From: Microbulbifer sp. YPW1
Lineage (GTDB): Bacteria > Pseudomonadota > Gammaproteobacteria > Pseudomonadales > Cellvibrionaceae
Direction: 5' to 3'
Length of the DNA: 64,000 nucleotides
NCBI RefSeq assembly: GCF_013367775.1
Contig: NZ_CP055157.1
Span: 2,807,001-2,871,000 of the forward strand
Both the position numbers and the translations under genes were made by a program. The number at the start of each line of letters is the position of its first letter. Position 1 is the first letter of the stretch. Below, one piece after another: positions 14,894-58,781 of the stretch. Under the pieces are notes generated by a model. It was not told the origin of the DNA, ran no database searches, and worked only from the letters and a program-made list of their open reading frames with translations.

Positions 14894-15274
14894 TTACACT
14901 GAGTGCGATACTTTTGCTAACAGGATTAAGCTTTTATCGTCACCGTTCACCCATCCGTGCGGGGTATTGGGCTTGAACGTGATGAAGTCTCCGGCCCCGT
15001 AAGTAATACCTTCGGTCCGGTTTTCTCCCGCATCGCCCGCATACAGGGTGCCATGACCACTGACCACATAGGCCAACCACGCCTCGTCAGAGGTGTGAAT
15101 CGGATACTCCACCGCGCCAGGATCAATTTCAAACTGGAACATGAAGATCCCCGCGTCTTCGACCGCGCGAGCCTTCCAGCCCGACATGTTTTCGTGACTT
15201 GTGAAATCTGGTGCATCAACGGTTTCGATGGTGCTGGCGCTTTCATGCTCGAACATGATGTGATGTTTAGACAT
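14894..15274 (-). CDS. Small cupin-domain protein
   Basis: Single-domain cupin of 126 residues. The start is ATG 15274 (MSKHHIMFEH), with AGAGGGA just upstream; the frame stays open to 15319. Cupin motif 1 is around HTSDEAWLAYVVSGHG and motif 2 around PNTPHGW, giving plausible metal ligands. Cytosolic. It follows the aldehyde dehydrogenase/CoA-transferase operon in the same direction but is separated from it by a terminator-like hairpin, so it may be only partly co-expressed. Such cupins act as isomerases, epimerases or metabolite sensors; the sequence does not say which. Confidence 0.75.
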   Translation of the reverse strand: MSKHHIMFEHESASTIETVDAPDFTSHENMSGWKARAVEDAGIFMFQFEIDPGAVEYPIHTSDEAWLAYVVSGHGTLYAGDAGENRTEGITYGAGDFITFKPNTPHGWVNGDDKSLILLAKVSHSV

Positions 15275-15308
15275 TGCATTCCCTCTTGTTATTGTTTTTA
15301 AAAGAAGA

Positions 15309-15336
15309 AACGGAGGCATTTGCCTCCGTTTTTTAC
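15309..15336. terminator. Intrinsic terminator after aldehyde dehydrogenase operon
   Basis: Perfect 10-bp stem AACGGAGGCA/TGCCTCCGTT with a 2-base loop, T-rich on both sides (T6 on the plus strand, TTTCTTCTTTT on the minus strand). It lies directly after the aldehyde dehydrogenase stop at 15342 and before the cupin start. Confidence 0.75.
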
Positions 15337-15341
15337 GTTGC

Positions 15342-16790
15342 TTAATTGCAGTTCAGGTACACCGCACGTTTTTGCAGATAACCTTCGATACCATAGATGC
15401 CATCTTCGCCACCGATGCCGCTGCGCTTGTGGCCTGAATGGTAACCCTGGATGTAACCCACAATCTGTTTGTTCACAAACACGGTGCCAACTTCCAAACG
15501 TGCAATGGCATCCATAATGGTGCGGTAGTTATTGGTCCACAGGTAGCAGCTCAGGCCGTCATTGCGGCGATTGGTGATCTCCACTGCTTCCTCGTAGGAG
15601 GAAATAGTGACGATTGGCAGTACCGGGCCGAAAATTTCTTCCTGTGCCGCTGGCATATCGGCGCTCACACCAGACAATACGGTAGGCTGGTACCAGTTGC
15701 CCTTGGCAAATTCTTCACCTTCCGGGCGCTGTCCGCCACACTCCAGTGTTGCGCCGGCGTTGATAGTTTCCTGCACGATGGAGTCCACCCGGTCCAATCC
15801 CTGAGCAGTCACAGATGGCCCCATGTTGGGGTTTTCCATCGGGTTGCCCACGGTCAGCTGTTTGACCTTCTCCACCACCTTGCGGGTGAATTCTTCCGCC
15901 AGACTTTCATGGACCAGAACCAGCTCGGCACAAATACAGACCTGTCCGCAGTTCGCATAGCGGGAAATAACGACAGCATCCACGGCCTTATCGATGTCTG
16001 CATCATCCAATACGATGAAGGAAGCTTTGCCGCCGAGTTCCAGGGAGACGGCAGTGACGTTTTCCGCCACAGAGCGGCAGATGGCCTGGCCTGCGCGGAT
16101 ACTGCCGGTGAGGCTCACCAGCTGCGTGATGGGGCTTTTCACCAGATGTTCGCCCACGGTAATACCTGATCCGCTAATGACGTTGATGACCCCCTTTGGA
16201 ATACCGGCTTCTTCTACGACCTTGGCAAATTCCATCGCGGTGACTGGGGTGGCCTCGTGGGGCTTGATAATCATGGTGTTGCCGGTAACCAGTGCAGGAC
16301 CCACCTTGCGGCCGATAAGGGCCAGCGGGTAGTTGAACGCACACAGACCGATGGTTACACCGAACGGCACTTTCTGGATCCACAGCTGTTCATTCGGGCT
16401 GTCAGACGGAAAGATGTTGCCTTCGAGGCGGCGTGCTGCCTCGGCAGAGTAGGTGAGGTAGTTCAGTGTGTCGTCGAATTCGCCGTAGGCCTCATTCAGG
16501 GTTTTACCCTGTTCCTGCACCAGTAGGCGGGCGAAGTGCTCGCGCTTTGGTTTGAGTGCTTCAACCAGACGGAGAAGGTGGCGGCCGCGCTCAATGGCCG
16601 GCAGCAACTTCCAGCTCTGCAGGGCCTGCTGTGAGGACGCCAGGGCCGCATCTGCCTGCTCCAGGGTACAGTCGGGGACGCTGGCGAATACCGCACCCGT
16701 TGCAGGGTTTTCTACAGAAAGTTTTGTGGCGCTATCTATCCATTCGCCATCGATATAGCACTGATAATGTTGTTGGGTCTCGCTCATCAT
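15342..16790 (-). CDS. NAD(P)+ aldehyde dehydrogenase, lactaldehyde dehydrogenase (AldA)-like
   Basis: Oxidises an aldehyde to the acid; 482 residues, full length for the family. Catalytic residues: C285 in CGQVC, E251 in LELGGK, N153 in AFNYP; the cofactor loop is GSIRAG. The C-terminus ([11 protein letters not shown]) resembles E. coli AldA and the other aldehyde dehydrogenase at 32460. ATGATG start with GGGAG upstream. It closes the operon of two CoA-transferases and an enoyl-CoA hydratase (36-bp gap), so its acid product may be what the CoA-transferases activate, or its aldehyde may come from that pathway. The substrate is unknown. Confidence 0.9.
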
Positions 16791-16826
16791 CTACTCCCTT
16801 GGGCGTTATCTTTTCTTGTGTATTAC

Positions 16827-17621
16827 TTACTGGTTGAACTTTGGTACGCGCTTCTCAAGGAATGCGCTTAGGCCTTCTTTCGCGTCTTCTGTGCGGTAGA
16901 GCGAATCCGCGAGCTCGGCCTCCAGGCGCAGGGCATTATCCAGTGGCATGGAGCTTCCCTCGCGCACCGCACGTTTGGTGGCGGCAATGGCGAAGCCAGG
17001 GCCGCTGGCTAACTCTCTCGCAAAGTTGAGAGTGCCTACTTCGAGTGCTTCATCTGTGTAGAGACCATCCAGCAACCCAAGTTCCTGAGCGTGTGGTACG
17101 CCGAAGGTGTCGCCGGTTAGCAGGATTTCCATGGCCGCGCGTCGGCCGATTCGGCGCACCAGTCGTTGGGTTCCGCCATTACCGGGGATCAGTCCTAACT
17201 TGATCTCTGGCAATCCAAACCGGTAATTGCCTTCTGCGGCAAAGATAAAATCGCAGGCCATAGCAATTTCCAGGCCACCGCCAAGGCAGTGGCCGGAAAC
17301 TTGCGCGATATAAATTGCGCTGCTGTTTTCAATGGCATTTGCATTGGCGCGAGCCTGCTCCACCAATGCGAGGTTTTGCTCCACCGTATTGTTGGCAAAA
17401 ACCTTGATGTCGGCGCCGGCGCAGAAGAACCGCGCCAGGTGACTATCGATGATGACAACACGGATGGACGGGTTCTGCTCTGCCACTTTAATTGCAGCAC
17501 CTATATCGCTCAGAAAGGACTCGTGGTATGCGTTTGCCGGTGCAAGGTTCAGGCTGATACGCGCGATACCGTCCTCCTCTACATTGAGAATGACATTGTC
17601 GGACTGATGCTCTTCACTCAT
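16827..17621 (-). CDS. Enoyl-CoA hydratase/isomerase (crotonase) family protein
   Basis: Crotonase-fold acyl-CoA enzyme of 264 residues. The oxyanion-hole segment is FFCAGADI; both hydratase glutamates are kept: E118 (GGGLEIAM) and E139 (GLPEIKLG). This supports a hydratase or hydro-lyase over a thioesterase or dehalogenase. The start has a strong GGAGG 5 bases upstream and overlaps the end of the CoA-transferase gene by 8 bp, indicating translational coupling. With two CoA-transferases and an aldehyde dehydrogenase it would add or remove water on a CoA-activated acid. Confidence 0.9.
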   Translation of the reverse strand: MSEEHQSDNVILNVEEDGIARISLNLAPANAYHESFLSDIGAAIKVAEQNPSIRVVIIDSHLARFFCAGADIKVFANNTVEQNLALVEQARANANAIENSSAIYIAQVSGHCLGGGLEIAMACDFIFAAEGNYRFGLPEIKLGLIPGNGGTQRLVRRIGRRAAMEILLTGDTFGVPHAQELGLLDGLYTDEALEVGTLNFARELASGPGFAIAATKRAVREGSSMPLDNALRLEAELADSLYRTEDAKEGLSAFLEKRVPKFNQ

Positions 17622-18774
17622 TACCGCCTCCGTTATTTTTTATTTCTTGCAGGATGGCACTCCGGTGTTGCCCCAGCTTTGGTGCCGGTTTGCTGCCCCA
17701 CAAAATAGCGTCGTCAATACGGATGGGGCAGCGGCTGGTGGTCAATGTACCGCCGCCATCCAGTGGAATTTGTTGCAGCATGTCCACACTGTTGAAGCCG
17801 TCATGGTTCATCAGTTGGTCCCAATCGAGCACCTCGGCGCACCAGATATCCGCAGGCTCCAGCAGGGAGAGCCAGTGGGCGGTGGTTTGTGTCGGCATGT
17901 GGTCGGCGAGGATTTGCTTGATCGAGTCGCGTTCGCTGAAGGCGCAGGCCGGATCGCTGTATGGCAACAATGCAGCGCAATCCAGCAGTTGTGCCAGGTC
18001 GGCGACACGTCCCATGGACAGCGCGATATATCCGTCGGCGGTGCGGTAAAACCCGTAGGCACCCGCGACCAGGGTATGTGCGCCGTTGACACTTGCGCGT
18101 TCGATTTTTTGCACCGGGTCATGCAGGAGAATGGTCAGCGGCTCGAACTGAAAGTCGATCATGGCCTCGAGCATACTGATTTCCACATGGGCACCTTCTC
18201 CGCTCACAGCCCGCCCGTACACGGCGGCGAGAATACCCTGCACCAGTTGTGCGCCGGTAAAAATGTCGGCGACGGGTACACCCATGGCGACGGGACCATC
18301 TTTGCTGCTGCCGGAAAGCCAGGTGAGTCCAGACAGGGCCTGTAGCAACAGGTCCTGGCCCGGACGACTCTTCCACGGCCCCTCACTGCCATAGCCGGTG
18401 ATTTCACCGTAGATCAGCTGTGGGTTGATGGCCTTTACGGATGGGTAGTCGAGCCCCAGCCGCGCCATAACACCGGGGCGGAAATTGGCGATAAGGATGT
18501 CCGCTTGGCGAATCAGAGCATCAATTTCCGCGCGGTGCTCGGGGTTCTTGAGGTCCGCACTGAAGCTTTCCTTGTCGCGATTGATGGCGTGGAACAATGT
18601 CGATTCGTCTTCCAGTACACAGTCGGAAAGATAGAGGTTGCGGCAGTCATCGCCACCTTGCGGACGCTCGATTTTAATCACGCGGGCCCCCAGGTCTGCC
18701 AGACGCAATGCGGCAGAAGGGCCCGAGAGAAACTGAGAGAAGTCCAAAACCAGTAAACCGTCCAGCGGTTTCAT
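17614..18774 (-). CDS. CaiB/BaiF family (class III) CoA-transferase, copy 1
   Basis: Moves CoA between carboxylic acids without ATP. 386 residues. Family features: [14 protein letters not shown] at the N-terminus, VIKIERP, ENF-like [16 protein letters not shown], and catalytic Asp D170 in VPVADI, matching Asp169 of formyl-CoA transferase. It overlaps the second CoA-transferase gene by 4 bp (ATGA) and the hydratase gene by 8 bp. The two copies are clearly paralogous (similar GPW, PGQDLL and SGL blocks) but diverged; they may form a heteromer or activate two acids. Confidence 0.92.
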
Positions 18775-19925
18775 CGCAGAGCCTCCAGGATTCTGGCAGT
18801 GTCGGCGCCCAGGGATGGGGCCGCTTTGTTGCTGGTTGCCGCTTGGCCATTGATACGTATCGGACAGCGGGTGGTTGTCACCTTTACCGGGCCGCCATTT
18901 CCGTTATTGGCCTTACGGGTAACCTGTAAGGACATGGAAACCGCGTTAAACGCCGGGTGTGAGAGCAACTGGTCATAATCGAGCAGCTCTGAGGCCCACA
19001 GGTCGTGCGCTTGCATCCGTGCCAACCAGTATTCAGTGGTGTTGGTTTGCAACTGTTCGGCCAGCGCTTCCTTTAACGCATCGCGTTGTTTAAAGGCTTC
19101 GCTATTCGGTACATCGAGAGCTGGGCATTCCAGTGCCTGAGCCAGCTGGGGCAGCGAACCCATCGAGATGGCAATCCAGTCGTTCTGTGTTTGGTATATA
19201 CCGTAGGGTGCACCGAGGAACGCGTGGGCGTTCGCAATCTCACTGCGGGTTGGCATCTGGCGGCCGTTATTCAAATAGGTGGTAAGGCCCTCGAACTGGA
19301 AGTCGATCATTGATTCCAGCAGGCTAGCCTGTACCTTGGCACCGGTAGCCTGTTTCTGGCGGCGTACCAATACCGCAAGAATGCCCTGAGCAAGGTGAGT
19401 GCCGCAGAGCATGTCGGCAATTGCCAGCCCCAGTGGAATCGGGTCCTGATCTTTGTTGCCGCTCAGCCAGCCAAGTCCCGATACTGCCTGGGCCAGCAAG
19501 TCCTGCCCGGGCTTATGTGCCCAAGGGCCGGTGTTTCCGTAACCACTGACTTCGCCATAAATCATCTGAGGATTAATGGCCTGTACTTGTTCGTAATCCA
19601 GGCCAATCTTTTCCATTACCCCGGGCCGGAAGTTGTGGGTCATCACATCGGCGGCGGCGATGAGCTTCTTCACGGTGGCGAGATCGTCCGGGTTTTTAAG
19701 ATCCGCGCAGAAGGACTCTTTATTCCGGTTAATCGTGTGAAACAGCAGGCTGTCACCATCGACCGTGAGGTCTTTGGTGGCCAGCTGCCGACAGGCGTCA
19801 CCGCTGCCGGGGCGTTCAATCTTGATCACCCGCGCGCCGAGATCTGCCAGACGCAGGCCCGCGTAGGGGCCTGCCAGGTACTGGCTGAACTCAAGGACGG
19901 TGACACCTTTCAGGGGTTGCAACAT
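18771..19925 (-). CDS. CaiB/BaiF family (class III) CoA-transferase, copy 2
   Basis: Paralogue of the next gene, 384 residues. The N-terminus [36 protein letters not shown] and catalytic Asp D171 in LAIADM are all present. It starts 3 bp after the stop of the solute-binding-like gene and ends in an ATGA overlap with copy 1, so the operon is tightly coupled. Donor and acceptor acids are not predictable from the sequence. Confidence 0.92.
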
Positions 19926-19928
19926 AAA

Positions 19929-21110
19929 TCAATCCTGACGGGATTTAACGTAGAGTTGGTTGAGGTGCGCGAGTAATGCCTCAGCATCACCGCCGTTCAT
20001 CAGATATTCACGGATGGGTGCACCGGAGTTGTCCTGGAAGAACATATGTCCGTGGTAGCGAGGGCGCAGGAACGCGCGGTCAAGCGTGGGTAGGGTGTTG
20101 ACGAAGTAGTTGTTCGTCAGATTGTTGGCCGCGGTACTGGTCCACGCATTACGATGTCCAGGTTGACCACCATATTGTATGTAGAAGGAGGCTTGCAGCG
20201 CAGGGTCTCCTGCGAACTGGACGAATTGCGCGGCGATTTCGGGGTGTTTGCTGCGGCTGGAAATTGCCAGGCCGGTGCCACCGAGGGTGGTTTTAAGGTG
20301 TTCGCCTTTGGGGCCGGCGGTCACGGTATCGCGGAATTCCAGCAGTTTGCGTGCATAACCCGGTTGTGCGTAATTTGCATAGCCGTAAGCAAATGGGCAG
20401 TAAGCGAAATCATCGCTCAGGGTCATTGCCTCGTACACCTTGATGGGGTTCCAGTCGAAGCAGCGGCGATCGAGATTGTCAGAGAGGGCCTTCAACATAC
20501 CCAGCGCTTCGATCCCGACCTCTTTGCTGACGACCTCGTCGTCGCGAACACACGGATCTTCGCCCATTGCGGAGCAGAGCATGTAGAAGTTCATCAGGGT
20601 GTCTTGCGGGATGCTGGGGACCGCTACCAGGCCTTTGCGGGCCAGCTCCATCAAGTCTTCCCAGGCCTGGGGTTCTTCCAGTCCTCTCTCGCGCAACAAA
20701 TCCGGGCGGATTGACGCAACCGGGGTCGCCGCGTCCAGCGCCAGTGCCCACTGTTGGCCATCGTAATGATAGGAGTTGTGTGATTCACCTACCGCGTGGT
20801 CAGCCTGATCTTTCAGAAATTCGGCAGGAAGCCATTCATCCAGTGGCAGGATCACCTTTTCCCGCGCGGCGAACCCGGTCCAGGGGTGATCGATGACCAG
20901 CAGGTCGTAGCGGCTTGCCAGGTCGTCAATGGGGTGGTCGGCAAAGGCCTGCAGGGAGCGCTTGTCCCATTCGATGGTGACATGCGGATTCAGTTCTTCG
21001 AAACGCTGGGCGGCGGCCACCATGGGAGTGAAACCACGGGTGTGGTTCCAGGTCATGCCGCGCAGGGTAATAGGTTCCGGTTTAGCCACCGGAGCGTGGG
21101 AGCTGCTCAT
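19929..21110 (-). CDS. Solute-binding-protein-like protein without signal peptide
   Basis: 393 residues resembling family-1 extracellular sugar-binding proteins of ABC transporters (ITLRGMTWNHTRGF, AAAQRFEELNPHVTIEW, DLLVIDHPWTGF, TTLGGTGLAIS, AQFVQFAGDP). I place the start at ATG 21110 (MSSSHAP, with AGAGAG upstream); the open frame reaches 21203, but neither start gives a hydrophobic signal, lipobox or membrane segment. No ABC permease or ATPase gene occurs nearby. It is the first gene of the CoA-transferase operon, 3 bp from the next gene. It may be a cytosolic metabolite-binding protein or substrate shuttle for the enzymes, or a fold recruited as an enzyme. Function unknown. Confidence 0.85.
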   Translation of the reverse strand: MSSSHAPVAKPEPITLRGMTWNHTRGFTPMVAAAQRFEELNPHVTIEWDKRSLQAFADHPIDDLASRYDLLVIDHPWTGFAAREKVILPLDEWLPAEFLKDQADHAVGESHNSYHYDGQQWALALDAATPVASIRPDLLRERGLEEPQAWEDLMELARKGLVAVPSIPQDTLMNFYMLCSAMGEDPCVRDDEVVSKEVGIEALGMLKALSDNLDRRCFDWNPIKVYEAMTLSDDFAYCPFAYGYANYAQPGYARKLLEFRDTVTAGPKGEHLKTTLGGTGLAISSRSKHPEIAAQFVQFAGDPALQASFYIQYGGQPGHRNAWTSTAANNLTNNYFVNTLPTLDRAFLRPRYHGHMFFQDNSGAPIREYLMNGGDAEALLAHLNQLYVKSRQD

Positions 21111-21187
21111 GGTTTTCTCTCTAGTGCAATTGCTGCCCCGTGGACGGAGGCATGCGGTTGGTGGCTCATCAGGATGTTTTTTATATA

Positions 21188-21202
21188 TGAAATTATTGTT
21201 CA
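21188..21202. promoter_or_regulatory. Possible IclR operator in divergent promoter
   Basis: TGAAATTATTGTTCA, an inverted repeat with 4-bp arms, sits in an AT-rich patch (21176-21213) between the divergent CoA-transferase operon and the IclR gene. IclR-family sites are often weak palindromes of about this length. This is only a guess from position. Confidence 0.3.
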
Positions 21203-21308
21203 AGTATAAAAACTGGTTTTGAAGAGTGTCAACCTGTGCTTAAATCTCTGCGCAACCTGAGAAGTTGCAGAAACAACAAAGATTGGCTGGTCATGAGGCG
21301 AGCCGAGG

Positions 21309-22100
21309 ATGAATTTGGGGTGCCGGGGGGGAACGATGGCAGTAGCGGTGGCAGAAAGAGTGAGTAAGTACGCGGTGCCCGCGCTGGATAAGGCGCTGGA
21401 AATACTGGAATTTTTGGCGGCGGAATCCCTTCCGCTGTCGCAGTCGGATATAGCGCTGGGGATCGGTCGCACCAATAGTGAGATTTATCGCGTTTTGGTC
21501 GGCCTGGAGTCGCGGGGTTACATACTGCGCGATGAAGTGTCCGGCAAATACCGGATGTCGCTCAAGCTACTGGAGCTGACTCGTACGCTCTCACCGGTGT
21601 CGCAGCTGCGATTTGCTGCTCAGCCGGAGATGGAGGCGCTGGCTGCCCGGCTGGGGCAGTCCTGTCACTTGAGTGTGATTCACCAGGGGCAGTTGATGGT
21701 GGTTTTGCAGGTGGCGAGCCCGGGGCCGGTTTCCCTGTCTTTCAATGAAGGTACCTTGTTCCCGCTGCTGCAGACCGTATCCGGGCGCTTGCTGCTGGCG
21801 AACTGTGAGAGTGGCCGCCGGCAGCGCGTGCTCGATGATTTGGCAGAGGCCACTGACAGGCCCGCGTTGGAGCAAAACTTGAACCGTATCCGTGAAATCG
21901 GTTTTGAGGTTCGCCCCAGCGAATTGACCGATGGGGTGACCGATTGTGCGGCACTGGTCGGCAAGCCGGATGGTGCAACAATTGCCGCACTCGCGGTCTC
22001 CAGTTTGACTTCGGTCGTGGGTAAAAAACTGGAGCAAAGTGAGCTGGTAAGCGAAGTGCGTACGTCCGCAGCCAAAATTAGCGCGGCCCTGGGACTTTGA
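21309..22100 (+). CDS. IclR-family transcriptional regulator
   Basis: 263 residues: winged helix at about 20-85 (YAVPALDKALEIL, LPLSQSDIALGIG, NSEIYRVLVGLESRGYI) followed by the IclR effector-binding domain. Divergent from the CoA-transferase operon with about 200 bp between, so it most likely controls that operon in response to its substrate. ATG 21309 is used; ATG 21336 after a G-rich tract is an equally credible start and would remove nine residues. No 19-bp galactan operator is present here, so this module seems to be controlled separately from the agar genes around it. Confidence 0.9.
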   Translation: MNLGCRGGTMAVAVAERVSKYAVPALDKALEILEFLAAESLPLSQSDIALGIGRTNSEIYRVLVGLESRGYILRDEVSGKYRMSLKLLELTRTLSPVSQLRFAAQPEMEALAARLGQSCHLSVIHQGQLMVVLQVASPGPVSLSFNEGTLFPLLQTVSGRLLLANCESGRRQRVLDDLAEATDRPALEQNLNRIREIGFEVRPSELTDGVTDCAALVGKPDGATIAALAVSSLTSVVGKKLEQSELVSEVRTSAAKISAALGL

Positions 22101-25446: not shown

Positions 25447-25458
25447 AAGGTCTATTTG

Positions 25459-26613
25459 ATGAAAATTACCGATATCAAGGTATACCCGGCCTGGGTGGGG
25501 CACCGCAATCTGTGTCTGGTGAAAGTGGAGACCGATGAGGGAATCTACGGTTGGGGTGAGTCCGGCTTGTCTAGTCGGGAACTGGCGGTAGCCGGTGCCG
25601 TGAAGCACTTCCGTGAATTTCTGATTGGACGTGATGCGCGTAATATCGGCGCGCTCTGGCAGGAAATGTATCGCAGCCAGTATTTTGAAGGCGGCCGAGT
25701 ACTGACTGCAGCCATTTCTGCTATCGATATCGCATTGTGGGATATTGCCGGTAAAGCCCTCAATGTGCCGACTTATCAGTTGCTGGGTGGCAAGCAGCGT
25801 AACGAAATTCCGCTGTTTGTAACTTCGACCAAGCCGATGGGGCAGGCGCTGATGGACGACTTCCGTGCGCTGCGGGAGCAAGGCTGGGAAGTAATTCGTG
25901 CGACCACTGGCGAGCAGGGCTCGCCGATCGAGCCCACAACCTTTGATGTACGCAAATCGATTGCGGCTGCAGCGGGCAGCCTTAAGGAAATTCGCCAGGA
26001 GCTGGGTGAGGAATTGGTCCTGGGTATCGATTATCACCACCGCCTGTCGGTCGCGGAAGCCGCCAGTTTCTGTCAGAAGCTGGGTGAGGGTGTGCTCGAT
26101 TTTCTTGAAGAACCGATTCGCGATCAGTCGCTCGGTGCTTATCACGGGCTGCGCAAAATGACGAATATCCCCTTTGCCATTGGTGAGGAGTTCGCCTGCA
26201 AATGGGATTTTATGCCGTATATCGAACAGGACCTTACCAATTTTGCGCGCATTGATGTGTGTAATGTCGGCGGCCTAACCGAGGCCATGAAAGTTGCGGC
26301 AATGGCGGAGAGCCACTATATCGACATTATGCCGCACGATCCGCTCGGCCCCGTTTGTACCGCGGCTACGATCCAGATGTGTGCAGCCGTGCCAAATCTC
26401 TCCTGGTGTGAGATCGCGCCCTACGACAGTAATAAATCCGACCACGATAAATACTTCATCAACCGCCCAATAGAGAGCAATCGCGTCTACCCGGTGGGTG
26501 ATGCGCCTGGTCTGGGAATCGATGTGCATGAGGAAATGCTGGCGGAGCAGTCTTTCAAGTTTTGGGAAGCGCCCCGGTTGTACAAACCGGACGGTAGTTA
26601 CACCAACTGGTAA
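25459..26613 (+). CDS. dgoD: Enolase-superfamily sugar-acid dehydratase, probable D-galactonate dehydratase
   Basis: Dehydrates an aldonic acid to the 2-keto-3-deoxy acid. 384 residues; start at ATG 25459 (the TTG just before it is not needed) with AAAAGG upstream. Metal ligands D191, E217 and E243; catalytic histidines H193 (DYHH) and H293 (MPHDPLGP), the pattern of the galactonate/gluconate dehydratase group of the superfamily. The N-terminal capping domain has GWGESG and AISAIDIALWDIAGK. It lies between the SDR and the GH50 gene in one operon. Exact acid specificity (galactonate versus a related acid) needs assay, so the symbol is tentative. Confidence 0.85.
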   Translation: MKITDIKVYPAWVGHRNLCLVKVETDEGIYGWGESGLSSRELAVAGAVKHFREFLIGRDARNIGALWQEMYRSQYFEGGRVLTAAISAIDIALWDIAGKALNVPTYQLLGGKQRNEIPLFVTSTKPMGQALMDDFRALREQGWEVIRATTGEQGSPIEPTTFDVRKSIAAAAGSLKEIRQELGEELVLGIDYHHRLSVAEAASFCQKLGEGVLDFLEEPIRDQSLGAYHGLRKMTNIPFAIGEEFACKWDFMPYIEQDLTNFARIDVCNVGGLTEAMKVAAMAESHYIDIMPHDPLGPVCTAATIQMCAAVPNLSWCEIAPYDSNKSDHDKYFINRPIESNRVYPVGDAPGLGIDVHEEMLAEQSFKFWEAPRLYKPDGSYTNW

Positions 26614-29464: not shown

Positions 29465-30604
29465 ATGTTGATGGAAGTGCAAGATCAGATGTCGCGCCAG
29501 CTGGCGCCCGCGACTATCTCGACAACCAAGGTTGAGTATTACCAGGTTCCTCTGGCCGAGGTTCTGTCGGACGCCAAGCATGGGGACCATACCCACTTCG
29601 AATTGCTGGTATTCCGGGTACGCTGTGTCGACGGCCTGGAAGGTGTTGGTTACACCTACACCGGAGGGCGCGGCGGGCGGGCGATCTATTCCCTGTTGCA
29701 GGACGATATCCAGCCGTTGCTGGAGGGGCGTGACGCCTCTGAGATATTTGCCATCTGGGAAGAGATTCAGAGCCACCTGCATTACGTGGGGCGCGGCGGC
29801 CTGTTGAGCTTTGCCGTATCTGCGGTCGATATTGCGCTGTGGGATCTTCGCTGCAAGCGACTGAGTTTGCCTCTTTGGAAAGTGGCCGGCGGTGCTTCCA
29901 ATACCACCAAGTGTTATGCCGGCGGTATCGACCTGAACTTTTCAGAAAGCAAGTTGCTGGACAACATTTCCGGGTATCTGGCGCGTGGTTTTAGCGCGGT
30001 GAAGATCAAGGTCGGTAAAGAAGACTGCCGCGAAGATGTTGCCCGTGTTGAGGCAGTGCGTAACCTTATAGGTGCTGATGCCACCTTTATGGTGGATGCC
30101 AATTACTCGATGACCGTTGAAAAAGCAGTGCGTTTTGGCCGCGCGATTGATCACTGCGATATCACCTGGTTCGAAGAACCCACCATTCCCGATGATTACC
30201 TCGGCTACGGCCGTATTGCCGATGCGATCAATATTCCATTGGCGATGGGGGAGAACCTGCATACGGTGCATGAGTTCACCTACGCCATTGATTTGGCCAA
30301 GCTCGGTTTTCTGCAGCCCGATGCCTCGAATATAGGCGGTATTACCGGCTGGCTGAAAGTGGCTGAACTGGCATATGCCCACAACCTCCCGGTTTGCAGT
30401 CATGGTATGCACGAGCTGCATGTGGGGCTGATGGCGAGTCAGCCACATGCGGGCTACCTGGAAGTCCACTCGTTCCCCATTGACGAATACACAACCCGGC
30501 CCATCGTGCTGGAAAACGGTCGCGCCGTCGCCTCAGACGAAGCGGGCACCGGTGTGACCTTTGATGAAACTCTGCTGAAGCCGCATCTGGTCAAGCATTC
30601 TTAA
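29465..30604 (+). CDS. Enolase-superfamily enzyme, probable 3,6-anhydro-L-galactonate cycloisomerase
   Basis: Opens the anhydro ring of 3,6-anhydro-L-galactonate to give 2-keto-3-deoxy-L-galactonate (as known for Vibrio sp. EJY3). 379 residues, mandelate-racemase subgroup: KxK base K180/K182, metal ligands D211, E237 and E263, histidine H313 (CSHGMHE). It differs from the dehydratase at 25459, which lacks KxK. It heads an operon with a zinc dehydrogenase, a KduD homologue and an aldehyde dehydrogenase, exactly the other steps of the anhydrogalactose route; that context is the main reason for the call. A galactarate or other acid-sugar dehydratase is the alternative. Two in-frame ATGs (29465, 29471) are possible. 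Confidence 0.82.
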   Translation: MLMEVQDQMSRQLAPATISTTKVEYYQVPLAEVLSDAKHGDHTHFELLVFRVRCVDGLEGVGYTYTGGRGGRAIYSLLQDDIQPLLEGRDASEIFAIWEEIQSHLHYVGRGGLLSFAVSAVDIALWDLRCKRLSLPLWKVAGGASNTTKCYAGGIDLNFSESKLLDNISGYLARGFSAVKIKVGKEDCREDVARVEAVRNLIGADATFMVDANYSMTVEKAVRFGRAIDHCDITWFEEPTIPDDYLGYGRIADAINIPLAMGENLHTVHEFTYAIDLAKLGFLQPDASNIGGITGWLKVAELAYAHNLPVCSHGMHELHVGLMASQPHAGYLEVHSFPIDEYTTRPIVLENGRAVASDEAGTGVTFDETLLKPHLVKHS

Positions 30605-30616
30605 TAGGTATTTTCC

Positions 30617-31648
30617 ATGCAAGTTCAAGCAGCCCAGTACGTTGGTAACAAATCTTTCGAAGTGGTCGAGGGTCGCTGTGAGGCGCCGGCTGCTGATGAG
30701 GTGCGCCTTAAAGTTGGTTATGTTGGAATCTGCGGAACCGACATGCACATCTACCATGGTGTGATGGATCAGCGTGTAAATCCGCCGCAAGTGGTGGGGC
30801 ATGAGATGTCTGGTGTCATCGATGCAGTGGGCGCGAATGTAAAAGGCTATGACATTGGTGACCGGGTTGTTGTGCGCCCGCTGGACTACTGTGGCAGCTG
30901 CCCCGCTTGTGATGAGGGCCACAGCCATATTTGTCACAACCTGAAGTTTATGGGCATTGACTCCATTGGTGCCTTCCAGAGCTACTGGAATGTCAAAGCC
31001 CGCACCCTGCACAGGCTGCCGGAAAACGTGTCCCTGAAGCAGGGCGCTTTAATCGAACCGCTCGCTGTGGCTTGCCACGATATTTCCCGGGCCCGCCTGA
31101 AAGCCGGGGAAAAAGCGGTAATTCTTGGCGGTGGTCCTATTGGTCAGCTGGTAGCCCAAGTTGCTCTTGGGATTGGCGCCGAAGTAATGATTTCCGAGCC
31201 GAGCCCCGAGCGACGCGCTTTTGCGGAAAAAACCGGTGCGCTGGCAGTAAATCCGATTGAGCAGGACCTGAAAGCGGCGGTGGAAGACTGGACTCGCGGA
31301 AAAGGCGCGGATGTGGTCTTCGAGGTTTCTGGCGTGCAGCCCGCGGTAGATGCCATGACCGAGATTGCCGCCGTGCGCGGTCGAATCTGCATGGTTGCCA
31401 TTCACTCGCAGAAACCGCAGCTGGATCTGTTCAAGTTCTTCTGGCGAGAACTGGAACTGGTGGGTGCGCGCGTATACGAAGCTCAGGATTTTGAGCAGGC
31501 GATCGAAATGGTCGCCAAGGGCAAGATCGACCTGGTGCCATTCATCAGCAAAATCGCGTACTTGAATGATATCGGCAGCGCATTCGCCTCTATGGACGGC
31601 AACCCGTCTGGTATGAAAGCCCTAGTGGCATGTGGAGCAGAGGACTGA
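30617..31648 (+). CDS. Zinc-dependent dehydrogenase (MDR), probable 2-keto-3-deoxy-L-galactonate 5-dehydrogenase
   Basis: Medium-chain alcohol dehydrogenase of 343 residues. Catalytic zinc ligands C39 (GICGTD) and H62-E63 (GHE); structural zinc cysteines C92, C95, C98 and C106; dinucleotide loop GGGPIG. The family includes L-threonine, sorbitol and L-galactonate 5-dehydrogenases. By operon position between the cycloisomerase and the KduD homologue, it should oxidise C5 of 2-keto-3-deoxy-L-galactonate to the 2,5-diketo acid, which KduD then reduces to 2-keto-3-deoxy-D-gluconate. The chemistry is supported by sequence; the substrate is inferred. Confidence 0.83.
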   Translation: MQVQAAQYVGNKSFEVVEGRCEAPAADEVRLKVGYVGICGTDMHIYHGVMDQRVNPPQVVGHEMSGVIDAVGANVKGYDIGDRVVVRPLDYCGSCPACDEGHSHICHNLKFMGIDSIGAFQSYWNVKARTLHRLPENVSLKQGALIEPLAVACHDISRARLKAGEKAVILGGGPIGQLVAQVALGIGAEVMISEPSPERRAFAEKTGALAVNPIEQDLKAAVEDWTRGKGADVVFEVSGVQPAVDAMTEIAAVRGRICMVAIHSQKPQLDLFKFFWRELELVGARVYEAQDFEQAIEMVAKGKIDLVPFISKIAYLNDIGSAFASMDGNPSGMKALVACGAED

Positions 31649-31690
31649 GTTGTCCATTGCGTACCGAAAAAGAACTTAGAGAGTAATACG

Positions 31691-32455
31691 ATGTTGCAAA
31701 AATTCAGTCTCGCCGGAAAAAAAGCCCTGGTAACCGGATGTAACCGCGGTATCGGCAAAGCCATGGCCGTTGCCCTGGCGGAAGCGGGTGCGGATGTGAT
31801 CGGCGTTTCCGCCAATCTCGATCTGAATGATTCCGAGGTGGGTCGTGAAGTGGCCGCCGCAGGCCAGCAGTTCTTTCCTTACCAGTGCGACTTTTCCGAC
31901 CGCAGTTCACTTTACGGATTTATCGACAAGGTAAAAAGCGAACACGCCCAGATCGATATCTTGGTTAACAATGCCGGCACCATTCTGCGCGCGCCAGCCG
32001 CAGAGCACGGGGATGATCTGTGGGACAAGGTGATCGAAGTTAACCTGAATGCCCAGTTTATCCTCAGCCGCGAAATCGGTAAGGAAATGGTTGCCCAGGG
32101 TTCTGGCAAGATCATCTTCACCGCATCGCTGCTGACCTTCCAGGGCGGTATTACCGTACCCGGCTACGCGGCCAGTAAAGGAGCCATCGGCCAGATTACC
32201 ATGGCGCTGTCTAATGAGTGGGCTTCCAAAGGTGTGAACGTCAATGCCATTGCCCCGGGTTATATCGCGACCGATAACACCCAGGCGTTGCGCGAAGACA
32301 GTGAGCGCGCGGCAAGTATTCTTGCTCGTATCCCCCAGGGTCGCTGGGGTGAGCCGGAAGACTTTAAGGGCCCTGTGGTATTTCTCGCCTCTGAAGCCTC
32401 CAATTACATGAATGGCAGCGTCCTCCTGGTGGACGGTGGCTGGATGGGAAGGTAA
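31691..32455 (+). CDS. kduD: KduD-like 2-keto-3-deoxy-D-gluconate 5-dehydrogenase / diketo-acid reductase
   Basis: SDR of 254 residues very like E. coli KduD along its length: TGCNRGIG (15-22), NNAG (93-96), [10 protein letters not shown], catalytic S146, Y159 and K163, [14 protein letters not shown] and the C-terminus LVDGGWMGR. KduD interconverts 2-keto-3-deoxy-D-gluconate and the 2,5-diketo acid. No pectin or alginate genes are nearby; in this operon it would run as a reductase, inverting C5 of the anhydrogalactose-derived acid. The end is 4 bp from the next start. Confidence 0.88.
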
Positions 32456-32459
32456 ACCC

Positions 32460-33914
32460 ATGGCGATCGAAATCAAGAACAACGTGAATTTTGTCAATGG
32501 CGCATATGTTGCTTCCGCGGCAGGCGACGTTATTGAGGTGCTGAACCCGAGCACGGGTGAGTTACTGGGTACTATTCCCAAAGGTTGCGCAGAAGATGCA
32601 GAAGCGGCACTGGTCAATGCCAAGCAGGCCCAGAAAGCCTGGGCAAAGCGTACTGCGCGTGATCGTGCAACCTTGTTGCGCAAATTCGCCGCGGCCATTC
32701 GCGCAGAGACCGAAGGCCTGGCGGAGCTGTTGGTAAAAGAGCAGGGCAAGCTGATCAGTGTAGCCCGCGATGAAGTCAACGCCACCGCGACCTTTATAGA
32801 ATACGCCTGTGACAACGCGCTGACTCTGGAAGGCGATATTCTGCCTTCCGATAACGAAGGCGAAAAAATTTATATCCACAAAGTGCCGCGCGGCGTTGTG
32901 GTAGCAATTACTGCCTGGAACTTCCCGCTGGCACTTGCCGGCCGCAAGGTTGGTCCGGCACTGATCACCGGCAACAGTATTGTGATCAAGCCAACCCAGG
33001 AAACACCACTGGCGACCATGGAGTTGGGGCGCATCGCCAACCAGGCGGGTATCCCCGCAGGCGTTCTGAATATTGTGAATGGTGAGGGTTCAATCGTCGG
33101 TCAAGCGCTGTGCGAAAGCCCGCTCACCGCGATGATCACCATGACTGGCAGTACCCGTGCCGGCCAGATCATTCACCAGGCCAGCGGCAAGCACATGATT
33201 CCAGTGATGCTGGAGCTGGGCGGCAAGGCGCCGTTTATCGTGATGGAAGATGCGGATCTGGATAAAGCCGCGGAAGCCGCACTGTGGACCCGTTTTGCCA
33301 ACTGCGGACAGGTGTGTACCTGTGCCGAGCGCTTGTATGTGCACGAAAGCGTATACGATGCCTTTATGGACAAGTTTCTACCCAAGGTGAAGTCGCTGAA
33401 AGTGGGCAACCCCCTGGATGCATCTTCGCAGATGGGGCCGAAGGTGAGTGCCCGTGAGATTGAGCATATCCACGAGTTGGTGCAAAAAAGTATCGCCCAG
33501 GGCGCCGAGCTGGTTACCGGCGGTAAGCCCGCAGAGGTTGCAGGCTTCGAAGGCGGCAATTGGTACGAGCCTACCGTGCTCGCCAACGTGCAGCAGGATA
33601 ATATCTTGGTGCACGAAGAAACGTTTGGTCCGATTTTACCGGTCGTGAAGATCTCCAGTATTGATCAGGCGATCCAGTACACCAACGACAGCGAATACGG
33701 CCTCTCAGCCTATCTGTTTACCGAGAACATGCGTTACATCCATCGGTCCATTGCGGAAATGGAGGTAGGTGAGGTTTATGTCAATCGCGGTATCGGTGAG
33801 CAGCATCAGGGCTTCCACAACGGCTGGAAACTATCTGGTATCGGCGGTGAAGACGGTCGCTACGGACTTGAGCAGTACGTGGACAAGAAAACAGTTTATC
33901 TTTCCGAAGCCTGA
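32460..33914 (+). CDS. Aldehyde dehydrogenase, probable 3,6-anhydro-L-galactose dehydrogenase
   Basis: 484 residues from ATG 32460 (MAIEIKNN); the open frame runs back to 32412 inside kduD but the ATG just after the kduD stop fits better. Catalytic C286 (GQVC), E252 (LELGGK), N154 (AWNFP). It is a paralogue of the enzyme at 15342, both AldA-like. As last gene of the cycloisomerase operon it most likely oxidises 3,6-anhydro-L-galactose to the anhydrogalactonate used by the first enzyme of the same operon. Known anhydrogalactose dehydrogenases belong to this family. A T-run terminator follows. Confidence 0.87.
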
Positions 33915-34998: not shown

Positions 34999-35027
34999 TA
35001 ACAGAGTTTGTGGCCGTAGGAGTCAAT

Positions 35028-35933
35028 GTGGTGGGTGATATTTTGGCGTGTGACTGGGGTACTTCCAGCTTCCGGCTGATGCGACTGGATAAGCAGGGGA
35101 ATATTCTTACCGCAAAGGAAACAAAAGGCGGGATAAAGTCCCTAAAGCATGTGGAAATTGAGCGGTATCTTGTCGATCACTGCTGTGAAATCGCAGGCAG
35201 AGAGGCTTTGCCTGTGGTTATGTGTGGCATGGTCGGTTCTGGTATCGGCTGGCATGAGGTGCCTTACGTGGATTGTCCGGCCTCTGAGGCGACGTTAGCT
35301 GCGGGCATGCGGCAAGTTCCCTGTGACGTTCTCGACGCCTATTGCGTGCCGGGAGTGAAGTTGCAGTCGTTGGTGGGGGCTGCGGATGTTATGCGAGGCG
35401 AAGAGACGCAGGTGGTGGGTTGGTTGTCCCAAGCGAGTGAGGGGGAGCGCGCCCACAGTATTTTGTGTATGCCCGGGACCCACAGCAAGTGGGTCACTAT
35501 TACCGATGGCGGCATTAGCGCCTTTTCAACCGCGTTTACCGGCGAGCTCTATGCCCTACTGACAGATCACAGTGTATTGGTGCAGGGGGAGCAGCGAGAT
35601 AGCGCCGAGGCGTTTTCCGCGGGGCTGCGGGACAGCTCAGACAGTGCCAGTCTAATTCATCAATTGTTCAACGCCCGCAGTCGGGCTGTGCTCGGCTTGC
35701 AGGAGCCTGCCCATAGCGCAGCCTACCTCTCCGGGTTGCTGTTGGGCAGTGAAGTGGGTGCTATGGCTGGTGCAATTGGTAGTGATCCGGTACACCTGAT
35801 ATGTGGAGATTACTTGGCGGGGCCATACCGTCAGGCGTTCGAGCACTATGGTGTGGACTGCAAACACTACTCCGGGGGTACCTTCTCGGCCAAAGGCCTG
35901 TGGACCATTGCTCGGGTTGCGAAGCTGGTGTGA
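35028..35933 (+). CDS. dgoK: 2-dehydro-3-deoxygalactonokinase
   Basis: Phosphorylates 2-keto-3-deoxygalactonate at C6 for DgoA. About 301 residues. The frame opens at GTG 35010, but GTG 35028 has AGGAG at an ideal 5-base spacing and is preferred; the protein then begins just before ACDWGTSSFRL, the phosphate-binding loop of the DgoK/ASKHA fold. Other DgoK blocks: CGMVGSGIGW, PGTHSKWV, FSTAFTGELYALL. It stands alone after two operator copies and is separated from dgoA by 12 kb, but presumably belongs to the same regulon. It may also have to serve the anhydrogalactose branch, since no KdgK is visible. Confidence 0.9.
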   Translation: MVGDILACDWGTSSFRLMRLDKQGNILTAKETKGGIKSLKHVEIERYLVDHCCEIAGREALPVVMCGMVGSGIGWHEVPYVDCPASEATLAAGMRQVPCDVLDAYCVPGVKLQSLVGAADVMRGEETQVVGWLSQASEGERAHSILCMPGTHSKWVTITDGGISAFSTAFTGELYALLTDHSVLVQGEQRDSAEAFSAGLRDSSDSASLIHQLFNARSRAVLGLQEPAHSAAYLSGLLLGSEVGAMAGAIGSDPVHLICGDYLAGPYRQAFEHYGVDCKHYSGGTFSAKGLWTIARVAKLV

Positions 35934-50815: not shown

Positions 50816-51487
50816 TTACAAAACAAGAAAAACAACTAGTCGAGACGGCCCATGTGCCCCAAACGCGAGCGTCTGTTGAATGTCCGCGGTTTTTGATGGC
50901 CCTGACACCAGCACGATGTTGGTGGGCATGGATGATCCCCAGGGGCTGAGCGCCATATAACTCTCGAGATCTGGATGCAGGTCTTTCTCGCGGATGATTA
51001 CCAGATGCGTTGGGGGAATCAGTGAGAGTGAGCGGGGCTCTGTGGCACTCGGGATCAGGACCAGGCTACCGGTCTCCGCGATGCCCGCAGCTGCGGTGGT
51101 AATTGCGACCGGTGTCAGGGAAAACAAAGTTTCTTTTTTCTCTGCGTCATTGCACTCCGTTGGCCACTGTTGCCATTGGAGGGACATCTCCCCTAGCTCG
51201 CCAAGCAGGGACCGCACCTCTTCACCGCCCATTAAACGAGTGATACCTAGGTCTCGCATACAGGTAATAACCAATTCGGCGAGCCCCAAGTCATTGGTCT
51301 CCATTACCTGGGCATGGTTTGCGCGGAGTAGTTCAATAAACTGCTGGCGCATCTGATCGGTTGTTATGGCTTTGTTGCCTGCATGCGATACCAGGTCGCC
51401 AGCACCGTGCGCCGCATTGCGATGCACTACCGGATGCGGTGCGGAACCATTGCGCAAACGGCTTAGTATATTTTCTCTTGCGGGCAT
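50816..51487 (-). CDS. lutC: LutC/LldG-type lactate utilization protein (LUD domain)
   Basis: 223 residues, one LUD domain; subunit of the iron-sulfur L-lactate oxidation complex LutABC. The start is ATG 51487 (MPARENILSRLRN) after AGGAG; it overlaps lutB by 25 bp. The same frame stays open to 51982, but that stretch is a shadow of lutB. Core: VITCMRDLGITRLMGGEEV, AAAGIAETGSLVL and HLVIIREKDL, with the usual PSKTADIQ near the end. Confidence 0.88.
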   Translation of the reverse strand: MPARENILSRLRNGSAPHPVVHRNAAHGAGDLVSHAGNKAITTDQMRQQFIELLRANHAQVMETNDLGLAELVITCMRDLGITRLMGGEEVRSLLGELGEMSLQWQQWPTECNDAEKKETLFSLTPVAITTAAAGIAETGSLVLIPSATEPRSLSLIPPTHLVIIREKDLHPDLESYMALSPWGSSMPTNIVLVSGPSKTADIQQTLAFGAHGPSRLVVFLVL

Positions 51488-56498: not shown

Positions 56499-56564
56499 CG
56501 GCCTTGTCTGGTTCCGTTGACCTTTAAAGCCTCAGTGCATCTGGAGAATGTGGAGAGTAGTAGG

Positions 56565-57539: not shown

Positions 57540-57556
57540 GCCTGCGAGACATCACT

Positions 57557-58753: not shown

Positions 58754-58781
58754 ACGTAAAAAGATGGTGGAGAACAAAATA

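Follow-up and report, generated by a model that had tools for sequence, protein, structure and literature searches.

What does an operon of CoA-transferase genes do among the agar-degradation genes of Microbulbifer sp. YPW1? The locus lies in a stretch of 64,000 nucleotides, hereafter the window, in which a first-pass annotation had described tightly coupled genes for a signal-less solute-binding-like protein (SBP), two different CaiB/BaiF CoA-transferases (CaiB1 and CaiB2), an enoyl-CoA hydratase (ECH) and an aldehyde dehydrogenase (ALDH), followed by a cupin gene and with a divergent IclR gene. All seven predicted genes are found where they had been placed (Table 1), with Pfam scores of 53.5 bits (SBP_bac_1), 332 and 316 (CoA_transf_3, PF02515, cut-off 23.3, which makes both CaiB proteins members of CoA-transferase family III), 198 (ECH_1, PF00378), 505 (Aldedh), 41 (Cupin_2) and 81 (IclR_C). 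The coordinates also agree with the tight coupling, i.e., a 3-bp gap between SBP and CaiB1, overlaps of 4 bp (CaiB1/CaiB2) and 8 bp (CaiB2/ECH) and 36 bp between ECH and ALDH. The cupin gene does follow, after 22 bp, but since a terminator-like hairpin separates it from the ALDH, the tight unit comprises five genes; this hairpin is weak statistically (12 such sites in the region vs. 9.2 expected) and well placed. The cupin is 34-45% identical to cupins at eight relatives' loci.

Table 1. Features of the CoA-transferase operon and of its agar-related context (window coordinates).
Feature	Position	Strand	Basis or remark
Small cupin	14894..15319	-	Pfam, relatives' loci
Terminator-like hairpin, 10-bp stem, between ALDH and cupin	15308..15331	-	motif scan
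ALDH	15342..16790	-	NCBIfam, nearest solved chains
Enoyl-CoA hydratase/crotonase, both catalytic Glu	16827..17621	-	Pfam, column check
CaiB2, family III CoA-transferase, second of pair	17614..18774	-	Pfam, NCBIfam, residue check
CaiB1, family III CoA-transferase, first of pair	18771..19925	-	Pfam, NCBIfam, residue check
Signal-less CUT1-type SBP fold, 393 aa	19929..21110	-	Pfam, structure search
31-bp palindrome TTTATAcTTGAA-N7-TTCATATATAAA, candidate IclR operator	21180..21210	.	overlaps -10 box
Sigma-70-like promoter TTGACA-18-TATACT, 11/12 consensus matches	21203..21232	-	consensus match alone
IclR-family regulator, divergent	21309..22100	+	Pfam
3,6-Anhydro-L-galactonate cycloisomerase (context)	29465..30604	+	5xd7, 515 bits
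Zn-ADH 30617-31648, KduD-like SDR 31691-32455, ALDH 32412-33914 (context; probable anhydrogalactose branch)	30617..33914	+	solved-chain matches

The likeliest start of the SBP gene is at 21110, as in database entry P0001, and not at 21203. Structure search and Pfam both support the fold of a CUT1-type binding protein, which as a fold does not reveal the function. In a 15-sequence alignment including the window's protein and read by eye, at most about a dozen residues precede the first conserved strand in every sequence, which leaves no room for an export signal, as the first reading had it. A cognate permease and ATPase are absent from the operon by gene list and Pfam, and ABC-transporter genes adjoin some relatives' loci (L022, L033, L034). 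A role for this fold inside the cytoplasm is our guess. Current database entries name the gene "ABC transporter substrate-binding protein" or "extracellular solute-binding protein".

CaiB1 and CaiB2 are 51% identical, and in a tree of 89 first and 89 second CaiB sequences the two split without exception (support 0.999), which marks them as an apparently ancient pair. The position of the aspartate that we take to be catalytic, located via alignment with YfdE, holds Asp in all 187 CaiB sequences of the loci. The substrate cannot be read from these sequences, because they score far below every matched NCBIfam equivalog cut-off (oxalate, succinate-glutarate, mesaconate, formyl and carnitine; best 217.6 vs. 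522 and 210.5 vs. 750). The claim of both catalytic glutamates in the hydratase was borne out by a column check, and among the ECH sequences near the relatives' genes both are present in 49 of 51, the exceptions being one incomplete sequence and one remote relative (26%). Where a MaoC-type hydratase is encoded nearby, the D-x4-H-x-D motif is present in 36 of 41 sequences.

A search for the same gene set in other genomes, which the first-pass annotation had proposed, showed that the SBP-fold gene, CaiB1 and CaiB2 (hereafter the trio) recur together. Both CaiB genes adjoin the SBP gene in 98 of 100 fetched loci, 89 by gene calling and nine by tblastn (the locus end truncates L009 and L010). The 100 loci are the best 80 of 386 relatives, 18 from a further search and two short ones, and 96 of them are distinct, as four pairs (L009/L020, L010/L027, L115/L051, L116/L058) come from the same genomes; Labilibacter marinus contributes two loci (L049, L091). 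They come from Proteobacteria, Actinobacteria and Bacteroidota (the bacterial classes of named records being our own assignment). In the two remaining loci, L052 and L128, the SBP gene stands without CaiB, L052 having ECH and ALDH within the locus, and the Demequina locus (L038) lacks ECH and ALDH beside its trio. Among 293 genomes of the host's order, eight have an SBP match, three of them strong; we treated the other five (E 1.7e-9 to 4.2e-4) as ordinary binding proteins and left them uncounted.

The trio accompanies agar use. The anhydrogalactonate cycloisomerase was found in all 43 genomes searched (42 of agar type and Demequina, whose match is only 45% identical; the set does not include L069 or the L082 and L117 genomes). 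Seven of the 293 order genomes have it, including all three with a strong SBP match; of the four without the trio, one (G052) is 75% complete. The idea that the operon interrupts the galactan regulon was not upheld: agar genes flank it on both sides and the association recurs in other genera, so that it is no odd insertion but a conserved companion of agar use. Its genes are not the anhydrogalactose dehydrogenase or cycloisomerase, as the ALDH and cycloisomerase of the context genes match the solved enzymes much better. A sulfatase motif lies near the trio in 12 of 73 non-terrestrial loci vs. none of 27 terrestrial ones, which, with our own grouping of habitats, is suggestive only.

The relatives outside the agar degraders say more about the chemistry. 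In Bacteroidota pectin and rhamnoside loci the trio stands beside RhaT- or MFS-type sugar transporters, a GFO/IDH dehydrogenase, lactonases and a MaoC hydratase; a fuconolactonase-like amidohydrolase lies within the trio operon in four loci, and 2,4-diketo-3-deoxy sugar-acid hydrolase-like genes are among the neighbours. Nine Bacteroidota trio operons carry a Zn-ADH and a KduD-like SDR, 54-57% and 73-77% identical to those of the window, which together would convert an L-2-keto-3-deoxy sugar acid to KDG. In Flavobacterium flavigenum (L125, genome G654) the trio is next to an L-fucose dehydrogenase (357 bits, cut-off 300), a fuconolactonase-like gene (271 bits, cut-off 400) and a 2,4-diketo-3-deoxy-L-rhamnonate hydrolase-like gene (368 bits, cut-off 500), in a locus with genes that we take by eye to be GH28, pectate lyase, GH105 and pectin methylesterase; the lactonase and hydrolase relatives in L120 (genome G481) are 80-86% identical. 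Hymenobacter-type loci have alpha-L-rhamnosidase-like genes on the flanks of the trio. The L-rhamnose isomerase route does not account for the rhamnoside loci, RhaA being absent from 37 of 39 trio genomes (present in G753 and G757).

The oxidative L-fucose/L-rhamnose pathway consists of a 1-dehydrogenase, a lactonase, an MR/MLE dehydratase, an SDR and a diketo-acid hydrolase. Trio relatives include or lie next to genes for a dehydrogenase, a lactonase-like protein, an SDR and a hydrolase-like protein, and in L125 and L130 part of the pathway lies in one locus in which no MR/MLE gene was found. Unlike the known pathway, G481 and G654 have the CoA trio and MaoC, and in the two dehydratase families searched, MR/MLE and IlvD/EDD, no sugar-acid dehydratase beyond housekeeping types was found in either genome. 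The best names for their MR_MLE_C matches are enolase, which (in G654 as in G750) is our assumption, and, from best matches below their own curated cut-offs, MenC and an amino-acid/dipeptide epimerase-type protein; the sole IlvD/EDD gene of each genome sits among what are presumably leu/ilv genes (L144, L145, by eye). The argument was completed for these two pathway-bearing genomes. Larger MR/MLE proteins occur in several further trio genomes of this kind, e.g., G344 (nine matches), G525 (the genome of L130), G580 and G461, and the same test failed in G756, a marine relative without cycloisomerase, which has two further MR/MLE proteins. Since agar degraders have the ordinary dehydratase families (six MR_MLE_C matches, one enolase-like, and four IlvD/EDD in the window's own genome), the argument is confined to the distant relatives.

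Taken together, we tentatively propose, at a little under an even balance, that the trio and a hydratase, either ECH or MaoC, together remove water from an L-aldonate via its CoA thioester, L-galactonate being the likeliest substrate in agar degraders. The cytoplasmic SBP-fold protein and CaiB1/CaiB2, probably as a complex, would bind the L-aldonate and transfer CoA onto it, and the hydratase would take the 3-hydroxyl off the aldonyl-CoA as water, giving the enol of 2-keto-3-deoxy-aldonyl-CoA. The CaiB pair would then hand the CoA to the next aldonate, and CoA would therefore work catalytically, the module substituting for a sugar-acid dehydratase of the MR/MLE or IlvD/EDD family. In agar and porphyran degraders L-galactose (desulfated L-galactose-6-sulfate) would become L-galactonate and then L-KDGal, which would enter the anhydrogalactose branch, with the operon ALDH oxidising the sugar itself or else L-glyceraldehyde; for loci of the Hymenobacter and Flavobacterium types, L-rhamnonate or L-fuconate would be the substrate. 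The earlier scheme of acid, acyl-CoA and hydrated acyl-CoA is thus kept in its acid, its acyl-CoA and its hydratase step, which fit the genes, but a sugar acid and dehydration are favoured, because the relatives carry sugar transporters and sugar dehydrogenase, lactonase-like and diketo-acid hydrolase-like genes. In this reading the operon would be a catabolic module for an L-sugar, conserved and spread by horizontal transfer. The fuller statement, of a three-protein CoA-shuttling complex with the SBP fold as cytoplasmic sugar-acid receptor, which with a crotonase or MaoC would be an L-aldonate dehydratase of oxidative sugar pathways across several phyla and supply an unassigned branch for L-galactose when agar and porphyran are used, is possible but rather doubtful. 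D-galactose was considered as a substrate and set aside, since galactokinase, present in 18 of the 20 trio genomes checked for it, makes an extra route unneeded in most of them.

It is unlikely, yet worth weighing, that the operon instead processes a by-product, acid or aldehyde, as the first-pass annotation had suggested, or else an agar sugar so modified (e.g., 2-O-methyl-anhydrogalactose or pyruvylated galactose) as to be beyond the standard route. The constant company of the agar route, together with recognisable genes for both standard agar branches in the window, would fit this, as would genes present in some trio loci (clusters 28-30) that we take by eye to be the P450, ferredoxin and reductase of a 6-O-methylgalactose demethylase-like set. 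However, the agar route is missing from relatives at pectin and rhamnoside loci (in a second set of 45 genomes searched, 22 are without cycloisomerase; the L. marinus genome falls in both this and the agar-type search set), so the trio chemistry is not bound to an agar-only compound.

The ALDH leads to a reading which we consider distinctly improbable, namely a role further downstream: the ALDH would oxidise L-glyceraldehyde (or L-lactaldehyde) to L-glycerate, CaiB would form glyceryl-CoA, and ECH would remove the 3-hydroxyl to give pyruvate. The nearest solved chains of this ALDH are 6j75 (441 bits) and 3k2w (440 bits), which we take to be anhydrogalactose dehydrogenases, then aldehyde dehydrogenase A, and chains of the latter or of lactaldehyde dehydrogenase are within the four best; the best NCBIfam match is NF007497 (PRK10090), presumably AldA, at 491 bits vs. 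a cut-off of 500. Against this, Bacteroidota trio operons hold genes for whole sugars, such as the transporters, GFO/IDH and lactonase-like genes above, and ALDH is missing at many trio loci. Parts of two published accounts lend the downstream role some precedent, in that fungi cleave L-KDGal to pyruvate and L-glyceraldehyde (PMC11219438) and deoxyribonate use is proposed to involve glyceryl-CoA and a CoA-transferase (PMC6365646). A second, CoA-dependent opening of 3,6-anhydro-L-galactonate (ALDH oxidising anhydrogalactose, CaiB activating, ECH eliminating the 3-oxygen) is very improbable, for although elimination is the same kind of step and the operon ALDH has a relative in the window's second ALDH (441 vs. 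641 bits to 6j75), it would be redundant with the cycloisomerase in every one of the 43 genomes, a general duplication for which no reason is apparent.

The proposed L-aldonate dehydration has partial parallels. Carnitine CaiB/CaiD is a CoA-transferase with a dehydratase, and the likeness would lie in the CoA thioester, the crotonase dehydration and a family III transferase passing CoA on; the window's CaiB proteins, however, score 75 and 72 bits with the carnitine transferase model (cut-off 413) and so fall outside it, and two CaiB with an SBP protein in a sugar context differ from it. YfdE (CoA:oxalate CoA-transferase) and succinate--hydroxymethylglutarate CoA-transferase are among the solved structures nearest to CaiB1 (4hl6, 199 bits; 9br6, 171 bits), which is nevertheless far under the equivalog cut-offs (218 vs. 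522; 205 vs. 750). The 3,6-anhydro-L-galactose pathway accompanies the trio and would share the product L-KDGal, but has its own enzymes in the window (29465-33914); the oxidative L-fucose/L-rhamnose pathway differs in that an aldose 1-dehydrogenase and a lactonase are absent from the window's agar-type operon itself. For deoxyribonate use in Klebsiella michiganensis, the excerpted account in PMC6365646 likewise proposes a sugar acid as CoA thioester (deoxyribonyl-CoA), with a CoA-synthetase, a dehydrogenase, a thiolase and one CoA-transferase proposed for glyceryl-CoA, and in those excerpts names neither a crotonase dehydration nor an SBP protein. A full-text search, whose reach excludes most subscription papers, returned no published description of the present gene set or of such a way of breaking down sugars, and neither assay nor expression results for it.

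If the proposed dehydration is right, CoA-dependent water removal from sugar acids would be added to known chemistry, a fold familiar elsewhere from the binding proteins of transport would have a cytoplasmic role, the oxidative L-fucose/L-rhamnose route of pectin-using Flavobacterium without a recognised dehydratase would be explained, and red-algal galactan degraders would have a candidate for L-galactose use. Mechanism aside, a gene set common to several phyla and accompanying the agar route deserves its own annotation name.

Regarding regulation, the region holds two promoter-like sites vs. 4.5 expected by shuffling, and that in Table 1, upstream of the operon, is near-perfect. The palindrome overlapping it is a conserved candidate operator of the operon's own, through which IclR may control the operon. 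Its two strands are the sole matches in the window (none expected by shuffling), and the host genome has one further match, with three mismatches. An IclR homologue is close to the trio in 48 of the clustered loci, and upstream of the relatives' operons 23 of 83 regions beat all of 30 shuffles, where close relatives match partly by construction, because the template was the window's own palindrome arms. As for a common galactan operator, which the first-pass annotation, naming no motif, had said the operon lacks, the window contains no perfect palindrome (arms of 6-7 bp, spacer of 0-8 bp) in four or more copies. A wider IclR regulon was also considered from three further palindrome sites, leaving aside those with three mismatches and one two-mismatch site in G711, and was not adopted: the G710 and G293 sites are near genes without evident link, and mismatched sites outside Microbulbifer are weak, because a reversed control pattern matches several genomes too (in G293, control 3 and 8 vs. 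pattern 4 and 7). The third site, in Neiella (G715), is just upstream of a GH2 gene and next to a divergent IclR gene, and a GH2 gene often accompanies the agar-type operon.

All genes claimed by the first-pass annotation (a solute-binding-protein-like (SBP) gene, two CoA-transferases, a crotonase, an aldehyde dehydrogenase (ALDH), a cupin and a divergent IclR) are present in the window, and the claimed spacing, with overlaps of 4 and 8 bp and a 3-bp gap, matches the coordinates; the two transferases, CaiB1 and CaiB2, share 51% identity. The surrounding genome measures 4.58 Mb in a single contig, and the SBP protein has a relative at 98% in M. mangrovi. Outside the operon the window carries genes for agar and porphyran use, among which both standard agar-sugar branches can be recognised.

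Features of the operon and of the surrounding agar/porphyran locus
Feature	Position	Strand	Remark
SBP-like gene	19929-21110	-	probable start, as in database entry P0001
CaiB1, family III CoA-transferase	18771-19925	-	
CaiB2, family III CoA-transferase	17614-18774	-	
Crotonase (enoyl-CoA hydratase, ECH)	16827-17621	-	
ALDH	15342-16790	-	
Cupin	14894-15319	-	
IclR	21309-22100		divergent from operon
Near-perfect promoter	21232-21203		upstream of operon; consensus match only
Terminator-like hairpin	15331-15308		between cupin and first five genes; consensus match only
3,6-Anhydro-L-galactonate cycloisomerase	29465-30604		515 bits to 5xd7
Second ALDH	32412-33914		close to 3k2w and 6j75
MR/MLE, galactonate-dehydratase-like	25456-26613		
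2-Keto-3-deoxygalactonate kinase	35010-35933		
Gluconolactonase-like gene			within window
Porphyranase-domain protein			within window
CBM6 proteins			within window
Agarase-CBM proteins, two			within window

In 29465-33914 the cycloisomerase gene is followed in compact order by those for a Zn-ADH, a KduD-like SDR and an ALDH, probably an anhydrogalactose branch, and relatives of this Zn-ADH and SDR lie inside operons of the SBP/CaiB1/CaiB2 trio at nine Bacteroidota loci. Further along, 51463-52926 encodes a LutB-like lactate-utilisation iron-sulfur protein, possibly connected with L-lactate or L-glycerate use, and 55182-61100 is a separate locus, perhaps for mannosides, with consecutive MFS transporter, PfkB kinase, GlcNAc 2-epimerase-family protein and GH92.

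Among the best 120 of 4971 SBP relatives, those outside Microbulbifer share 59-72% identity and belong to agar-degrading Gammaproteobacteria, Hirschia, Bacteroidota and a planctomycete. When named genomes were scanned, 386 relatives were detected, the best 80 of which were fetched as loci; with 18 loci from a Bacteroidota sample (match in 19 of 395 genomes) and 2 from an order sample, 100 loci were examined, 96 of them distinct. The trio occurs together in 98, of which gene calling recovered 89 and tblastn a further 9, with median spacings of 4 and 2 bases in the 89 gene-called loci, while CaiB was not found in the remaining two, L052 and L128; in L052 the SBP gene lies directly 5' of ECH and ALDH. 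As the first and second CaiB copies form two clades (89 + 89, zero misplaced, support 0.999) and the catalytic Asp is present in 187/187 copies of the examined loci, the pair is ancient and both members seem active. A metagenome protein of 644 aa (P0042), with SBP fused to or running into an operon-type ALDH, may have arisen from an assembly in which the intervening genes dropped out.

It is near certain that the module is real and agar-associated, and the earlier claim that it was inserted into the agar locus is wrong: the cycloisomerase of the agar route was found (E 1e-80 or better) in 43/43 genomes, namely 42 whose loci contain ECH or ALDH and Demequina, where the match is weaker. It was found in 23 of 45 other genomes and not in the remaining 22, which are Hymenobacter- and pectin-type genomes and G756. 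In the order sample of 293 genomes, 7 have the cycloisomerase, and the 3 with a strong SBP match are all within those 7; since 4 cycloisomerase genomes (one 75% complete) are without the trio, agarose itself can evidently be used in its absence, which suggests that the trio serves a component that not every agar degrader uses. L-galactose is described in PMC5613140 as occurring in agars and porphyrans, the scanned genes of the window include no other recognised L-galactose route, and the substrate in agar degraders would presumably derive from this sugar.

The loci fall into 44 of agar type, 37 of a second type, 4 of a third, 9 mixed (one genome entered twice, and the ECH of L082 a remote relative) and 6 other. 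Agar-type loci combine the trio with ECH and ALDH, often with a GH2 protein related to beta-mannosidases, and 8 have a cupin. The second type holds a RhaT-like or MFS transporter, the trio, a second SBP-like protein, a GFO/IDH dehydrogenase and often MaoC, with Zn-ADH and KduD-like SDR added in nine marine-type loci. The third (L129-L132) has the trio, a fuconolactonase-like amidohydrolase, GFO/IDH and MaoC, with RhaT in 3/4, and L130 additionally an SDR and a 2,4-diketo-3-deoxy-L-rhamnonate hydrolase-like gene. In the midpoint-rooted SBP tree, third-type and pectin/Hymenobacter loci fall outside the marine group. The second SBP-like protein of Bacteroidota operons (e.g., L060, 14261-15496) is cytoplasmic, and its place is occupied in L129-L132 by the lactonase-like amidohydrolase gene. 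The Vibrio and Alginatibacterium forms (L022, L033, L034) lie near ABC-transporter genes, CUT2 kind by eye, and adjoin a GntR regulator gene, with no IclR homologue seen in these loci.

Regarding metabolism, the first-pass annotation was half right: the order acid, acyl-CoA, hydratase is retained, and its hydration of a by-product acid gives way to sugar-acid dehydration, favoured by the pathway genes of locus L125 (Flavobacterium flavigenum, genome G654). Beside the trio there lie an L-fucose dehydrogenase gene, over its cut-off, and fuconolactonase-like and diketo-deoxy-rhamnonate hydrolase-like genes, each under its own cut-off; the step absent between lactonase and hydrolase is a dehydratase. 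The comparison covered two dehydratase families, MR/MLE and IlvD/EDD. In G654 and G481 (the genome of locus L120), the proteins matching MR_MLE_C have MenC, an amino-acid/dipeptide epimerase-like protein and enolase as best names, those of MenC and the epimerase resting on scores under curated cut-offs, and the sole IlvD/EDD gene sits among leucine/isoleucine genes. Two Hymenobacter genomes, G746 and G750, gave zero IlvD/EDD matches, and in G750 the two MR_MLE matches other than enolase resemble MenC and an epimerase. L125-, G481- and Hymenobacter-type loci do carry the CoA-transferase pair and a hydratase, and the simplest reading is dehydration via the thioester. Carnitine is dehydrated via a CoA thioester, a logic that the proposed route through trio and hydratase would share. 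For Klebsiella, a sugar-acid thioester is proposed in PMC6365646. However, larger MR/MLE proteins occur elsewhere in several trio genomes, including G525 (locus L130) and G344, and agar degraders possess ordinary dehydratase families. The module likely acts on a sugar acid; of the single mechanisms, CoA-dependent dehydration ranks first, with odds slightly below even. The explanation as a whole, in which trio and hydratase would dehydrate an L-aldonate through a CoA thioester, is held tentatively, its chances lying just on the short side of balance, and we consider it rather more doubtful that this is a new kind of sugar-acid dehydratase, a three-protein CoA-shuttling SBP/CaiB1/CaiB2 complex with crotonase or MaoC, in several phyla.

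A 31-base palindrome, a candidate operator to which the IclR protein may bind, overlaps the -10 box of the operon promoter. Copies of it also precede the SBP gene in Microbulbifer, Gilvimarinus, Agaribacterium, Neiella, Hirschia and Dyadobacter. Across six Microbulbifer genomes searched, matches with <=2 mismatches occur only at the SBP-operon promoter. With the Neiella copy described below, the regulon therefore looks local, in keeping with the earlier proposal of separate control for the operon and the genes around it. In Neiella (L189, 7616-7646), a second copy of the candidate operator immediately precedes the gene for the beta-mannosidase-like GH2 protein, in which no signal peptide is seen by eye; this suggests that a cytoplasmic glycosidase is part of the pathway.
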